Part shown: in pieces, positions 36,207 to 41,902 of the stretch | How positions within the stretch are numbered: the first letter of the stretch is position 1 | Layout of the letters: every line of letters begins with the position of its first letter | From: Planctomycetaceae bacterium | GTDB taxonomy: Bacteria; Planctomycetota; Planctomycetia; Pirellulales; Pirellulaceae | Assembly (NCBI GenBank): GCA_002862205.1 | Contig: PKCN01000199.1 | Span: 1-64,000, forward strand | Direction: 5' to 3' | DNA: 64,000 nucleotides | The notes under the pieces: model-generated | Seen by the model: only the letters and a program-made list of their open reading frames with translations | Told to the model about the DNA's origin: nothing | Database searches by the model: none | Made by a program: the position numbers and the translations under genes

Positions 36207-36325
36207 GAGCTTTTGAGTGACTTGGGGTCATCCTTGTCGAAGGACTTTGCTAAAGTGACCGTGTGACGTTCATTCACCTCCTGCCAATTGTTTACCTCCT
36301 GCCAATTTACCGATCAGAGCATTTC

Positions 36326-37237
36326 ATGACGGATCAAGTTACGATTGATGATACGTTTGCTGAAGCATTTCCGATGCGCGGCACGCGTTTGATCATCACT
36401 GCGGCGGATGCCGAGTTGGCGGAGATTGCTGCGGGAGAATTTTGCGGCAATGCATCCAGCGTGATTGGATGTGACGCAGAGGCGGGGGTTGAGTGTGTGG
36501 TGCCCAGCGATAAAACCATCGATGGTCGGCCCGGAGTTGCGGTGCTGGCTTTTGCTTTTGATCGGGAATCATTGGAAAAAGCAGTCACTGCCCGCGTCGG
36601 TCAAAATGTGCTGACCTGTCCCACCACTGCTTGTTACGCTGGGTTGCAAAGTGATTTGAAGAAAGATCGAATCAAGGTCGGATCGCAGTTGCGTTTCTTT
36701 GGCGACGGTTATCAGTTCTCAAAGAAACTGGAGAATCGGCGATTCTGGCGGGTCCCCGTGATGGACGGTGAATTTCTGTGTGAAGATGTGGTTGGCACGG
36801 TCAAAGGCATTGGAGGAGGCAACTTGCTCGTGTGCGGGCAGTCACAGCGAGAGACATTGGCAGCCGTCCGGGCAGCCGTCGCTGCCATCCAGAGGCTGCC
36901 TGACGTGATCATGCCTTTTCCTTCTGGGATTGTTCGCAGCGGTTCCAAAGTCGGGTCCAAGTACAAACCGCTCAAAGCAAGTACGAATGACAAATGGTGC
37001 CCATCATTGCGAGGCCAAACCGAAACAGCACTGCGGGATGGAGAGCAAGCCGTCTATGAAATTGTGATCGATGGCTTGTCCGAGCAGGCGGTTACTGACG
37101 CGATGGCTGCCGGGCTTCAAGCTGCCGCTAAAGCACCGGGAGTGATGCGGATCTCCGCCGGAAATTATGGCGGCAAACTCGGACCACATCATTTTCATTT
37201 GCATCGGTTGGAAACGGGATCCCTTGCGTCCCGTTGA
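36326..37237 (+). CDS. ftr: Formylmethanofuran-tetrahydromethanopterin formyltransferase
   Basis: The 303-residue product has the length and motifs of Ftr/FhcD: DTFAEAFPMRGTRLIITA at the start, CPTTACYAGL, RFFGDGYQFSK, RFWRVPVMDGEFLCED, GGGNLLVCGQS, MPFPSGIVRSGSKVGSKY near the C-terminal half and GGKLGPHHFHLH at the end. It transfers the formyl group between methanofuran (or its bacterial analogue) and tetrahydromethanopterin in the cytoplasm. It opens the C1 cluster that continues with fwdD-like, a small ORF, fwdB, fwdA and fwdC genes. The frame is open to 36263, but that part is made of a short DNA duplication and is not conserved-looking, so the ATG at 36326 is preferred. Confidence 0.95.
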   Translation: MTDQVTIDDTFAEAFPMRGTRLIITAADAELAEIAAGEFCGNASSVIGCDAEAGVECVVPSDKTIDGRPGVAVLAFAFDRESLEKAVTARVGQNVLTCPTTACYAGLQSDLKKDRIKVGSQLRFFGDGYQFSKKLENRRFWRVPVMDGEFLCEDVVGTVKGIGGGNLLVCGQSQRETLAAVRAAVAAIQRLPDVIMPFPSGIVRSGSKVGSKYKPLKASTNDKWCPSLRGQTETALRDGEQAVYEIVIDGLSEQAVTDAMAAGLQAAAKAPGVMRISAGNYGGKLGPHHFHLHRLETGSLASR

Positions 37238-37522: not shown

Positions 37523-37903
37523 GTGAACGAGCCTGAAATGTCTGCAAAACGCTACCTGTTGAACCCCATGCGTACGGCCAAACAGGGCGTCCAGGTGAAT
37601 GTGGGCAAAGAAGGTGATGAGTACATTGAAATCACGACCACTTTGTCGATTCATCCAGATGATATGGCCGAAATTGGTGTATCTGATGGAGATCGGGTTC
37701 TGGTCAAAACCGAGTTTGGTGAGGCTGAATTCGGGTGTCAGACCGCAAAGGTTCCTGAGGGCATGATTTTTGTTCCCTACGGTCCGCCCACTTGCCAGCT
37801 GATGGATGGCGGGACGGATGGCACGGGGATGCCAACGAGCAAGGGTTGGGAAGTCGAAGTGACGCCGGTTGGCGGATCAAAATTTGAAGAGAAAGCAGAG
37901 TGA
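37523..37903 (+). CDS. FwdD/FmdD-like molybdopterin dinucleotide-binding protein
   Basis: The 126-residue product (GTG at 37523, or ATG at 37538) resembles the C-terminal molybdopterin dinucleotide-binding domain of the DMSO-reductase family, as found in subunit D of archaeal formylmethanofuran dehydrogenase: LSIHPDDMAEIGVSDGDRV, then VLVKTEFGEAEFGC, VPEGMIFVPYGPPTCQLMDG and GTGMPTSKGWEVEV. In that complex FwdB and FwdD together bind the Mo/W-pterin. The redox-inactive Fhc complex of methylotrophic bacteria does not need it. Here it is in the same operon as a FwdB with an intact active-site position, 10 bp upstream of the small ORF, which supports a redox-active enzyme. Confidence 0.82.
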   Translation: MNEPEMSAKRYLLNPMRTAKQGVQVNVGKEGDEYIEITTTLSIHPDDMAEIGVSDGDRVLVKTEFGEAEFGCQTAKVPEGMIFVPYGPPTCQLMDGGTDGTGMPTSKGWEVEVTPVGGSKFEEKAE

Positions 37904-38228: not shown

Positions 38229-39563
38229 ATGGATTTGAAAGTCATTGATAATGCAACGTGTACTTTCTGTGGATGCGTGTGTGATGACATTCAGTTACAC
38301 GCAGATGAAAACCGTATTCACCAGGCCAAGAAAGCGTGCGTGCTTGGCAAGGCATGGTTCTTGAACCATACGGCTGAGCGAAAGTATCCCGATGCTTTGA
38401 TCGACGGCAAGGAAGCAACGCTTGATGAGGCGATCGAGGCGGCCGCTGAGCACCTGTATCAAGCTGATATGCCGTTGGTGTATGGCATGAGCAACACAAC
38501 CTGCGAAGCCCAACGCGAGTGCGTGGAAATGGCCGATCACTTGGGGGCTTTGCTGGATAGCCATACTTCCTTGTGACATGGTCCAACTGAAATCGCCGCC
38601 CAGTTGGGTGGCAAGGTGACATGCACTCTGGGAGAAGTCAAAAACCGCGCTGACTTCATTGTGTATTGGGGTGGGAATCCGGCGGAATGTCACCCACGAC
38701 ATTTCACCAAGTACGCCCTGATGCCGAAGAGCCAGTTTCTGCCTCGTGGTCGTAAAGATCGTACGATGGTGCTGGTTGATATTCGCGAAACCAAAAGTGT
38801 GAAAGCATCCGATGTCTTTTTGCAGGTTCGCCCAGGGAAAGATTTTGAATTGATCACCGTGTTGAGGGCGATGATCAAAGATCAGCCGATCAGTGAAGCA
38901 CAGATTGCCGAGACAGGGCTGAGCGTGGAGCAGTTGCAGGATTTTGTGGCTCGAATGAAAGCCGCCAGATTTGGTGTCTTTTTCTTTGGCATGGGATTGT
39001 CGATGACACGCGGCAAGCACATGAACTCCGCTGCTTTATTGACACTTGCTGCCGAAATGAACGCGTTCACCAAGTTTGTCGCCATGCCTATGCGCGGGCA
39101 TGGCAATGTCACAGGGGCTGACGTGATCATGCGTTGGCAAACGGGATACCCGTTTGGAATCTCGTTCAACCGAGGCTACCCCCGCTACAACCCGGGTGAG
39201 TTCTCGACCGTCGATGTGCTGGTTCGAGGAGATACCGACTGTGCGTTCATCATTGGCGCTGATCCGGGGGCGACGATGCCAAAGCCGGCCATTGAGCATT
39301 TGAAGCGTGTGCCCACCATCGTGCTCGATCCGCATGTGACACACACCAGCAAGATGGCACGAGTGCACATCACGACCGCTCCAGCCGGTATCTCGGCACC
39401 GGGAACAGCGTACCGAATGGACGAGATACCGCTGCCATTGCGTCCCGCACTTGAGTCGCCCTATCCTAGTGATGAAGAAGTGGTGAGAAGGATCAAAGAG
39501 ACCATTCTGAAAAAACCTGACTGGATGGGTGAGCGACCTCAAATGCTCACAACACAGGTTTGA
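38229..39563 (+). CDS. fwdB: Formylmethanofuran dehydrogenase subunit B, apparent selenoprotein (in-frame TGA at 38574-38576)
   Basis: Read through one TGA, this frame gives a 444-residue FwdB/FhcB-type protein, the family's usual length. The N-terminus has CTFCGCVCDD, a CxxCxxxC motif for the [4Fe-4S] cluster. Codon 116 is TGA in the context SHTSL-TGA-HGPTE; archaeal FwdB/FmdB has its Mo/W-ligating Cys or selenocysteine in the same C/U-H-G-P sequence, at about residue 118. The protein continues without frame change: VYWGGNPAECHPRHF, VDIRET, PMRGHGNVTGAD, FIIGADPGA and HITTAPAGI. A SECIS-like hairpin follows the TGA. Without recoding, the gene would be split at its active site. Frame, context and hairpin together favour selenocysteine. 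It lies between the small ORF and fwdA/fhcA. Confidence 0.9.
38595..38612 (+). promoter_or_regulatory. SECIS-like hairpin in fwdB
   Basis: GCCGCCC (38595-38601) pairs with GGGTGGC (38606-38612), 7 bp including one G-U, with apical loop AGTT starting 26 nt after the in-frame TGA. An alternative pairing of CCAACTG (38583-38589) with CAGTTGG (38601-38607) is mutually exclusive. Bacterial SECIS elements lie inside the coding sequence just after the UGA and bind SelB through G and U in the loop, as here. Confidence 0.65.
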
Positions 39564-39686
39564 TCACGGTGTGATTTGTAACTTCATTTGGAAGTGAAGA
39601 TCCAATTTGTGACTCATCATGTAATGCGTCCCCGTGGATGTGTTCCACGTGGTTGGCAGTCGGAGAACTTGAAAGGTCCAGATCGA

Positions 39687-41027
39687 ATGCTCCGAATCAC
39701 TGGTGGAACTGTTTACGATCCAGCCAATGGAATCAACGGCGAAGTACGCGACCTTGATGTGGAAGATGGCAAGTTTGTGTCGTCTGTCACGGGCGGGCGT
39801 ACGATCGACGCTACAGGTTTGGTGATCTTTCCCGAAGGTGTCGATGTCCACACTCACGTTGCGGGAGGGTCGATCAATTTCGCCCGCGCGATGACTCCCG
39901 AGGATCATCGTCGCACGCAGGCTTTCATTCGCAGTCAGACCCGTCGCAGTGGGCTGGGGGGAATGGCACCGACGACCTTTGCAACCGGTTACCTGTATGC
40001 AGGAATGGGGTTCACTACCGTCAACGAAGCCGCCGTGCCAGTGTTGTCGGCCCCGCATACCCATGAAGAAATAGCTGATATTCCGATCGTTGACAAAAGC
40101 TGTTTGGTGCTGATGGCCAACAACGAGATCATGCTTGATCTGCTGGAAGCTGGAGAATATGAGCGGGCCAAACGTATGGTTGCCTGGCACGTCTGGGCCG
40201 CCAAGGCGTATGGAGTCAAGGCAGTCAACCCCGGAGGTGTTGCGGCCTGGAAATGGGGTAAAGATGCAAAGCAGCGGTCAGAACCTGTGGAGGGTTACAA
40301 AAATACAACTCCAGGATCCATTGCGGCCAGTCTGGCCAAGATCATCGATGAATTGGGCTTACCGCATCCCATTCATTTGCATTGCAATAACTTGGGAGCA
40401 CCAGGCAATGTCAGCACAACGCTCGAGACGATGAAGCATCTTGAGGGGCATCGAGCCCATTTGGCTCATCTTCAGTATCACGCTTGCGGAGGTGACGACT
40501 GGCATGCGATGAAATTCGAGGCGGCGCAGCTTGCTGAGTATTTCAATGCTCATCCCAACATGACCACCGATGCCGGCGCCGTTCTTTTTGGTGACACCGT
40601 CACGATCACCGCCGATGGACCCTGGCAGCATTTGCTCTACAAATTGACGGGTCGCAAATGGGGGAATCTTGACGTTGAGAATGAGACTGGTTGTGGAATC
40701 GTTCCGTCTTCGTACCGCCCCAGCAATCTGGTCAATGCGGTGCAATGGGCAACCGGGCTCGAACTCCTGTTGCTGATTGATGATGCGTGGCGGGTTTTTC
40801 TGTCAACCGATCATCCCAATGGAGCCTGTTTTTGGCGGTATCCGGAAATCATTCAATTGCTGATGTGTGCTGACTATCGCAAGGAATGCATGGCCCAACT
40901 GCCACCTGAAATCAAAAATCGGATTACCTTGCCGGAAATCGATCGCGAATGCATGTCGTTTGAAAACTGTCCGGTCGAAATGGAACGAATTGAACGTGCC
41001 GAAATTCAGCAATGCATTGCTGCCTAG
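39687..41027 (+). CDS. fwdA: Formylmethanofuran dehydrogenase subunit A (amidohydrolase)
   Basis: The 446-residue product from the ATG at 39687 is a metal-dependent amidohydrolase of the FwdA/FhcA type. It begins MLRITGGTVYDPANGINGEV, with DVHTHVAGG (His55 and His57, zinc ligands), APHTHEE, AYGVKAVNPGGVAAWKWGKD, IHLHCNNLGAPGN, HLAHLQYHAC and FLSTDHPNGACFWRYPEI, where the Asp should be the catalytic/metal residue. In archaea this subunit condenses formate and methanofuran or hydrolyses formylmethanofuran, exchanging formate with FwdB through a tunnel. The frame is open to 39588, but the extra 33 residues are not typical. It sits between fwdB and fwdC in the same operon and could equally be called fhcA. 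Confidence 0.95.
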   Translation: MLRITGGTVYDPANGINGEVRDLDVEDGKFVSSVTGGRTIDATGLVIFPEGVDVHTHVAGGSINFARAMTPEDHRRTQAFIRSQTRRSGLGGMAPTTFATGYLYAGMGFTTVNEAAVPVLSAPHTHEEIADIPIVDKSCLVLMANNEIMLDLLEAGEYERAKRMVAWHVWAAKAYGVKAVNPGGVAAWKWGKDAKQRSEPVEGYKNTTPGSIAASLAKIIDELGLPHPIHLHCNNLGAPGNVSTTLETMKHLEGHRAHLAHLQYHACGGDDWHAMKFEAAQLAEYFNAHPNMTTDAGAVLFGDTVTITADGPWQHLLYKLTGRKWGNLDVENETGCGIVPSSYRPSNLVNAVQWATGLELLLLIDDAWRVFLSTDHPNGACFWRYPEIIQLLMCADYRKECMAQLPPEIKNRITLPEIDRECMSFENCPVEMERIERAEIQQCIAA

Positions 41028-41083: not shown

Positions 41084-41902
41084 ATGAATAAAATTAAACT
41101 CACTCTCAGGGAAAAGCCGGTCGTTGTTTTGGAGGCTGAAGTGATCTCACCTGATCTCTTTGTCGAACAATCCAATGAAGAGATCCGGGCCAGTGTGGTG
41201 TATCACGGAAAACGGCAAAAAAGAATCGATGACTTTTTTGATGTTGAGGGTGAACGTAGTGACTGCATTGAGATTCATGGGGATCTGAATCGTGTGCGGC
41301 ATGTGGGACGGGCGATGACCCGTGGAGAAGTGACCATCCACGGTGATGTCGGAATGCACCTTGGGGCTCTCATGAAGGGAGGCACCATTGAAGTTCACGG
41401 CAACGCAGGCGACTGGGTTGGCGGCGAAATGAAAAAAGGCAAGATTCATATCCACGGGGATGCCGGGCAACAGGTGGGTGCCGCCTACCGTGGTAGCATT
41501 CTCGGGATGCAGGGCGGAACCATTGTGGTTGATGGAAATGCTGGCATCGAAGTTGGGATGAGGATGCGGCGAGGCATCATTGTGATTGGTGGAACCGCCC
41601 GAGATTTTGTAGGATTGCAAATGAAAGGTGGTACCATCCTCCTTTGCGGTGGTGCTGAAATTCGCACAGGAGCCTGGATGCAACGTGGCACTATCATCTC
41701 GTTGAAAGAACTTGCGTTGATGCCAACGTTTGCGGAAAGTGGTGCGTACAATCCGACATTCCTGAATGTCTACTCCCAACATCTGCAGGCACTTGGGGTG
41801 CAGTTGCCATACGCTGAGGCGGACGGCCGGTATCGGCGTTATAGCGGTGATCGGGGAGTTCCAGGAAAAGGCGAAATCCTGATCTGGGAACCCGCTGTCT
41901 GA
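41084..41902 (+). CDS. fwdC: Formylmethanofuran dehydrogenase subunit C
   Basis: The 272-residue product is built of glycine-rich beta-helix repeats like the C-terminal domain of glutamate synthase, the hallmark of FwdC/FhcC: EIHGDLNRVRHVG, VTIHGDVGMHLG, IEVHGNAGDWVGGEMKKG, IHIHGDAGQQVGAAYRG, IVVDGNAGIEVGMRMRRG and IVIGGTARDFVGLQMKGG. This subunit is structural and holds FwdA and FwdB together; in M. extorquens the equivalent FhcC lies next to the formyltransferase. The gene starts 56 bp after fwdA and ends the operon; an 18-bp array follows. Confidence 0.95.
   Translation: MNKIKLTLREKPVVVLEAEVISPDLFVEQSNEEIRASVVYHGKRQKRIDDFFDVEGERSDCIEIHGDLNRVRHVGRAMTRGEVTIHGDVGMHLGALMKGGTIEVHGNAGDWVGGEMKKGKIHIHGDAGQQVGAAYRGSILGMQGGTIVVDGNAGIEVGMRMRRGIIVIGGTARDFVGLQMKGGTILLCGGAEIRTGAWMQRGTIISLKELALMPTFAESGAYNPTFLNVYSQHLQALGVQLPYAEADGRYRRYSGDRGVPGKGEILIWEPAV

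Follow-up and report, generated by a model that had tools for sequence, protein, structure and literature searches.

Variants of FwdB, the catalytic subunit of formylmethanofuran dehydrogenase, that carry selenocysteine (Sec) have long been known from archaea, and the literature names Methanopyrus kandleri and Methanococcus maripaludis among the methanogens possessing Sec- or Cys-type FwdB proteins. The Cys or Sec residue at the site concerned serves as a ligand of molybdenum or tungsten (PMC7331816; PMC11656701). For planctomycetes, a study of Rhodopirellula sp. P2, a strain from Porphyra, predicted in 2016 that fmdB encodes a selenoprotein, placed it in an operon of the order fmdD-fmdB-fmdA-fmdC, and described a complete Sec machinery; Sec was also noted there in two unclassified bacterial sequences and glycine forms in three other planctomycetes, alongside a tree of the U- and C-type proteins (PMC4807772). 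Hence, a planctomycete Sec-FwdB, predicted in that study and known in its archaeal form, is not new in kind, and the preliminary description of the locus studied here, which was unsure whether such a protein had been reported from planctomycetes, can be answered in the affirmative. A further relative is bacterial Fhc, which makes formate and whose FhcB is described as a scaffold without a Mo/W-bisPGD cofactor (PMC10100899).

The window that we analyzed is a stretch of 64,000 nucleotides from Planctomycetaceae bacterium (contig PKCN01000199.1 of assembly GCA_002862205.1); its source genome, to which we refer as G000, is a 7.77-Mb draft in 451 contigs with a completeness of 98.7%. Read with TGA as Sec, the frame at 38229-39563 yields a protein of 444 residues with one internal TGA (38574..38576, +), which specifies residue 116 in the context SHTSL-U-HGPTE. 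Retranslation thus agrees with the preliminary description as to the lone in-frame TGA and the open frame on both of its sides. The assignment as FwdB proved correct as well, with 501.2 bits to TIGR03129 against a cut-off of 327.8. With the bacterial Sec-containing formate dehydrogenases (cf. PMC13188914), the protein shares membership in the molybdopterin oxidoreductase family, the predicted Sec ligand and a bacterial SECIS element; unlike them, however, it stays far below the cut-off of the formate dehydrogenase model TIGR01591 (55.6 vs. 666 bits). It aligns over nearly its full length with five FwdB chains of solved structures, and residue 116 coincides, as had been proposed from the archaeal proteins, with the Cys of 5T5I_B (VCHGPS), a chain identical in sequence to that of 5T5M, the Methanothermobacter wolfei enzyme, and with the X of 9SFI_Q (VXHGPS). 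Like archaeal FwdB (5T5I), the planctomycete protein hence displays a (U/C)HGP motif at the expected Mo/W ligand and is one of a set of homologous A, B, C and D subunits; the ligand position, Cys or Sec in FwdB, would here be filled by a Sec predicted from the TGA. Four further cysteines (C11, C14, C18 and C37), which we take to be the ligands of the N-terminal [4Fe-4S] cluster, are invariant in all 17 aligned FwdB rows. The search of the source genome gave only one FwdB match, which is of the Sec form; strain P2 differs in this respect, being described as having fmdB in a Sec and in a Cys version (PMC4807772).

The TGA at codon 116 is a conserved property of this protein. A scan of species-genome contigs returned 433 stretches encoding a relative, the best 80 of which, with identities of 73-95%, were kept; in all 80, as in the window, TGA at codon 116 is the only internal stop. 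The nearest relatives stem from Rhodopirellula and Rubripirellula assemblies (top identity 95% among these best 80 of 433), which places the host as a planctomycete near these two genera, and the record titles further name Pirellulales, Gemmatales and others. Strain K23_9, whose genome is complete, likewise has a TGA-containing FwdB (L087). The identical TGA in 80/80 kept relatives rules out an error of sequencing or assembly, the refutation that had been envisaged. General recoding of UGA, judged improbable from the outset, is excluded by fwdB itself, which terminates with TGA at 39561-39563 and consequently uses this triplet in both ways. Among the further loci retrieved by a class-wide search, which overlap in part with the 80 in origin, the motif contains TGA in 25/25; genomes with a TGA-containing fwdB beyond these 25 fetched loci were classed by the stop count of the search alone. 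In a draw of 392 genomes across the phylum, 10 FwdB proteins at 72-100% identity each have one TGA. Stops are absent from the group that comes next, L031-L037, at 55-61% identity. Matches of lower significance (E > 1e-9) that also contain one TGA are segments of other, longer family members, which we take as formate dehydrogenases. The residue at the site is U in 10/10 members of the Sec group and Cys in 7/7 of the next clade, to which 14 further loci added Cys in 14/14, making 21/21 read in all; the homolog comparison suggested for this site thereby gave the pattern expected of a selenoprotein. Twelve distant FhcB proteins have G (5), C (2), S (1) or a deletion (4) at the same place. One genome, G663, was considered as the bearer of a second, divergent TGA-containing FwdB, a candidate that was dropped when its locus was found to encode Cys (TGC) at the site.

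The fwdB gene is embedded in a set of genes that all lie on the same strand. It is preceded by ftr (FhcD; 36263..37237, +), encoding formylmethanofuran:H4MPT formyltransferase (TIGR03119, 414 bits; PF02741 and PF01913), whose true start is probably located about 60 nt inside this frame, and by fwdD (37523..37903, +), encoding the molybdopterin-dinucleotide-binding subunit, which scores 48.7 bits with PF01568, above the cut-off, and 77.8 bits with the FwdD model NF042908, under its cut-off of 175. Read through its TGA, fwdB (38229..39563, +) is followed by fwdA (39588..41027, +; true start probably near 39687) for the amidohydrolase subunit (TIGR03121, 553 bits; 401 bits to 8RJA_A) and by fwdC (41084..41902, +) for the beta-helix subunit (TIGR03122, 258 bits). 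This D-B-A-C operon, together with the Sec-type FwdB and the Sec machinery, is shared with strain P2 (PMC4807772). At the loci of the best 80 of the 433 relatives, many of them truncated by contig ends, homologs were found of fwdD in 72 (on the same strand), of fwdC in 58 and of ftr in 26. When the 3882 open reading frames of at least 100 amino acids from these 80 loci were clustered, the widely shared clusters corresponded to fwdD, fwdA, fwdC and ftr; we read the remaining large clusters, judged from their positions and sequences, as other frames over these same genes, and the smaller ones (at most 10 loci) represent neighbors in close relatives. No conserved electron-transfer gene adjoining the operon emerged from this clustering across the 80 loci. 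Likewise, the ferredoxin motif CxxCxxCxxxCP occurs in no frame of the window and gave two stray matches among the 80 related loci, each scanned for up to 9 kb per side where the contigs allow. Unlike the methanogen systems, the planctomycete operon has no FwdF or FwdG found in its vicinity. Fae and Mch are encoded in the source genome; in addition to the clear Fae on contig C6, there is a second Fae homolog (C25:13784-14278) that falls under the cut-off.

The codon, the hairpin with its conservation, the Sec machinery, the operon and the equivalence of the ligand site can be seen in the sequence, whereas we infer the insertion of Sec as such, the identity of the metal, the direction of the reaction and the carrier. 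FwdB, FwdD, FwdA and FwdC would assemble into a redox-active formylmethanofuran (or methylofuran) dehydrogenase, in which Sec116 would stand in for the tungsten- or molybdenum-binding Cys of the archaeal FwdB proteins. This complex would act after Fae, Mch and Ftr, most likely in the oxidative direction: the formyl group would be passed to the furan carrier, hydrolysis by FwdA would release formate, and the Sec-bound metal of FwdB would be the site at which formate is oxidized to CO2. This last step is to be expected from the retention of FwdD, of the codon for the ligand and of the four cysteines near the N-terminus. Most likely, the predicted complex is therefore a true Mo/W redox enzyme that ends H4MPT-linked formaldehyde oxidation, and we consider it probable that it is redox-active and runs oxidatively. 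The homologous archaeal enzymes fix CO2 (PMC11656701), and one might thus envision that the planctomycete complex operates reductively, as in methanogens. We regard this as unlikely, given that the presence of Fae and Mch in the genome points to formaldehyde oxidation and that the ferredoxin-motif scan showed no subunit for a low-potential electron donor near the operon.

That no electron-transfer subunit was found nearby can also be accommodated by a different proposal, namely a Sec-bearing formyltransferase/hydrolase of the Fhc type that yields formate only and in which the metal site of FwdB is inactive. The locus does resemble methylotroph Fhc in its A, B and C subunits, in Ftr and in the H4MPT pathway, and bacterial Fhc with its scaffold-type FhcB provides a precedent. 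What sets it apart from this scaffold (PMC10100899) is that the ligand, the N-terminal cysteines and FwdD are kept. The distribution of FwdD across 77 genomes is instructive in this respect: it is encoded in 25/25 genomes with Sec-FwdB and in 25/25 Cys-clade genomes, 21 of them with the site read, as opposed to 0/26 genomes that possess a distant FhcB only (site read in 12), where the ligand is mostly absent as well (10/12 read), and 0/1 for a genome designated G683. According to an opinion article from 2016, planctomycetes lack fwdD (PMC5020050); this claim is contradicted by FwdD in the window and in 50/77 genomes, and also by the fmdD reported for strain P2 (PMC4807772). Two of the 12 distant FhcB proteins still have Cys at the ligand position (L039 and L041, in genomes G369 and G152), and no FwdD was found in these two genomes; the ligand alone consequently does not mark the enzyme class. 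This persistence of Cys, and that of the N-terminal cysteines, which are largely kept in G683 and the other distant FhcB proteins read, lend some weight to the formate-only proposal. An Fhc would, however, be recognized by an FhcB devoid of the ligand and by the lack of FwdD, and the window contains both the ligand codon and fwdD; moreover, an inactive site would scarcely be expected to retain Sec. Collectively, these considerations make a formate-only complex rather improbable, and a redox-active dehydrogenase remains the reading that we prefer.

Genome G683, a member of the same family that is 99% complete, appears to have departed from this state. Its FwdB groups inside the Sec clade, with L063 as sister (support 100/98), on a branch of length 0.52 as compared to 0.036 in L063. 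It has no stop, and DSHTSLUHGPT has become DSD---RHDLT; G683 had been considered as a possible Cys form, a candidacy that ended when the reading of the locus revealed that the SHTSLUHGP motif is gone. The fwdA and fwdC genes still adjoin the FwdB gene (L156/L175), with identities of 78% and 63%, and no fwdD was detected in the 13 kb around it or genome-wide at E 1e-6. The sole SelA-like protein of this genome scores 259.9 bits against a cut-off of 267.9 and is 29% identical to SelA of the source genome; SelB or SelD homologs were not found within 18 kb around its gene.

As to the decoding of the TGA, the preliminary description had pointed to a 7-bp hairpin with the loop AGTT, 18 nt past the TGA and within the range of bacterial SECIS elements. 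We found this hairpin, GCCGCCC-AGTT-GGGTGGC, at 38595..38612 (+), inside the coding sequence. Its loop, AGUU in the transcript, occupies 38602-38605, 25 nt from the UGA, and on its own it reaches -13.1 kcal/mol. The bacterial SECIS model allows a loop of 3-9 nt on a stem of 4-16 bp, with a G in the first two loop positions, a spacing of 16-37 nt and an energy of at most -7.5 kcal/mol; the window hairpin, in which G is second and U third in the loop, agrees with every property quoted there (PMC13188914), and 81/81 genes (the best 80 of 433 and the window) stay within the energy limit. Location of the SECIS inside the coding region is the bacterial arrangement and distinguishes the planctomycete gene from archaeal Sec-FwdB. 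Taken alone, the hairpin is weak evidence: when we screened all 2786 TGA trinucleotides on both strands of the window for hairpins with at least seven contiguous stem pairs, a G as first or second loop nucleotide and the spacing of the model, 15 were followed by one reaching -13.0 kcal/mol or lower, and 105 by one at or below -7.5 kcal/mol, and the chance rate of the published model itself would exceed that of our screen since it admits stems from 4 bp. Nor is the 50-nt fold from the window TGA unusual when compared with shuffles (z -1.36). The weight of the argument therefore rests on conservation.

Conservation of the hairpin is evident at the level of codon choice. Synonymous variability, calculated per codon and scaled by the amino-acid usage in the gene, averages 0.90 in the Sec clade but drops to 0.47 over codons 121-128, which rank first for low variability among 264 windows of codons. 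CAG TTG is identical in 81/81 genes (the best 80 of 433 and the window), despite the six codons available for Leu. The equivalent codons of the Cys clade (21 genes) score 1.01 and rank 189 of 209, whereas in three random draws of 21 Sec genes the hairpin codons ranked 1, 1 and 3. This contrast between the Sec and the Cys clade is the strongest single piece of evidence in our analysis, and the SECIS is under selection in the Sec clade. All 80 distinct Sec sequences have AGTT as their loop; each of the seven pairs is of a standard type in 76-80 of them, and the hairpin is part of the minimum-energy fold of the 48-nt segment in 72. There are no compensatory double changes in the stem among these 80 sequences, because the encoded peptide hardly varies.

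The machinery required for Sec insertion, for which a search had been advised, is present in the source genome in full. The genes selB (648 aa), selA (469 aa) and selD (717 aa) are consecutive on contig C86, and tRNA-Sec with the anticodon UCA is encoded on C282 (70.3 bits). In the long SelD frame (L177 2112-4262), the TIGR00476 match spans the C-terminal part alone (C86:10222-11103); the N-terminal part may be a fused oxidoreductase domain. SelA scores above its cut-off in 82/86 genomes with a TGA-containing fwdB and in 42/69 Cys-form genomes (Fisher p 9e-8, a value that overstates independence, since the genomes are related by descent, and is indicative only). The first count combines 10/10 from the phylum draw, 8 of them directly above the cut-off and G344 and G343 judged by E-values of 5e-146 and 1e-117, with 72/76 further genomes; the second combines 39/61, 2/7 and G663, with G130 judged by its E-value of 2e-144, the site having been read in 21 of these 69 and the others classed by similarity and by a frame free of stops. 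Among the TGA genomes, four have no SelA above the cut-off: G682 (69% complete), G688 (65%), G497 (95%) and G611 (92%). The presence of SelA alone does not predict the Sec form, as so many Cys-form genomes also possess it.

Taken together, the conservation of the TGA, the constraint on the hairpin and the Sec machinery support the selenoprotein reading put forward at the outset, and we consider it very probable that Sec is inserted at codon 116 of a FwdB. The UGA would be decoded by SelB and Sec-tRNA(UCA), guided by the bacterial SECIS in the codons that follow. The identity of an inserted residue is not deducible from sequence alone, and readthrough by a near-cognate or suppressor tRNA, inserting for instance Trp, would also produce a full-length protein. 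Yet the site is that of a Sec/Cys metal ligand, the nearest other clade has Cys there, constraint on the hairpin is seen in the Sec clade but is lacking from the Cys clade, and tRNA-Sec and selABD are all in the genome, which renders such readthrough very improbable. A genuine stop at codon 116, with FwdB reduced to a truncated pseudogene product, has next to no chance of being right: TGA does serve this genome as an ordinary stop, including at the end of fwdB, but the same TGA without any other stop in the best 80 of 433 relatives, a hairpin constraint confined to the Sec clade and the retained operon genes all speak against decay.

We calculated a tree of 53 rows, including 15 Sec rows of the planctomycete type (two of them labeled Acidobacteria) and 21 Cys rows; its four outgroup rows are presumably archaeal. 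The 15 Sec rows and G683 form one clade (support 100/100), which adjoins or nests in the bacterial Cys clade (support 88/87 and 83/97); a tree in which the 21 Cys rows are kept together is not rejected (p 0.36). Joining the planctomycete Sec rows with 9SFI, the sole Sec-type row from outside, whose X we take as an archaeal Sec, is rejected (p 2e-72). Planctomycete Sec thus looks separate from archaeal Sec, so far as one outside row shows, and a gain of Sec from Cys in FwdB is likely from the topology. The two Sec-FwdB contigs labeled Acidobacteria (L125, L127) group with Gemmataceae and other planctomycete rows and represent either a transfer or mislabeled bins; L100 and L126, labeled Kuenenia, may be mislabeled too.

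These data lend themselves to a joint reading that we advance tentatively, with its chances somewhat short of even when taken as a whole. In planctomycetes, the ligand motif of FwdB and the FwdD subunit may act jointly as a single switch that decides which of two enzymes is formed on a common A-B-C core: a dehydrogenase that depends on Sec or Cys and oxidizes the C1 unit to CO2, or a hydrolase that ends at formate. Sec would have arisen once in the clade, apart from archaeal Sec, along with a new SECIS in the coding sequence. The G683 lineage would have lost the motif and FwdD together, with no reversion to Cys, leaving a fast-evolving scaffold. Seen next to the main text of the P2 report (PMC4807772), the wide survey and the test of SECIS constraint come from the present analysis. 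Among the literature matches listed, mostly non-subscription texts without supplements, we saw no mention of how FwdD is linked to the ligand in genome comparisons, of constraint on the SECIS or of a loss like that in G683; these three are what our study adds as comparative results.

Sec-type FwdB is hence a conserved bacterial clade and no one-off prediction, and annotation software that treats this UGA as a stop would break up the gene for a core C1 enzyme in the genomes of many planctomycetes. We suggest the Sec/Cys ligand in combination with FwdD as a sequence marker by which planctomycetes that form CO2 might be told from those that form formate. Selenium supply is predicted to limit formaldehyde oxidation in some planctomycetes, and if the joint reading is true, genomes with a single FwdB of the Sec form, such as that studied here, would be strictly selenium-dependent in their C1 oxidation.
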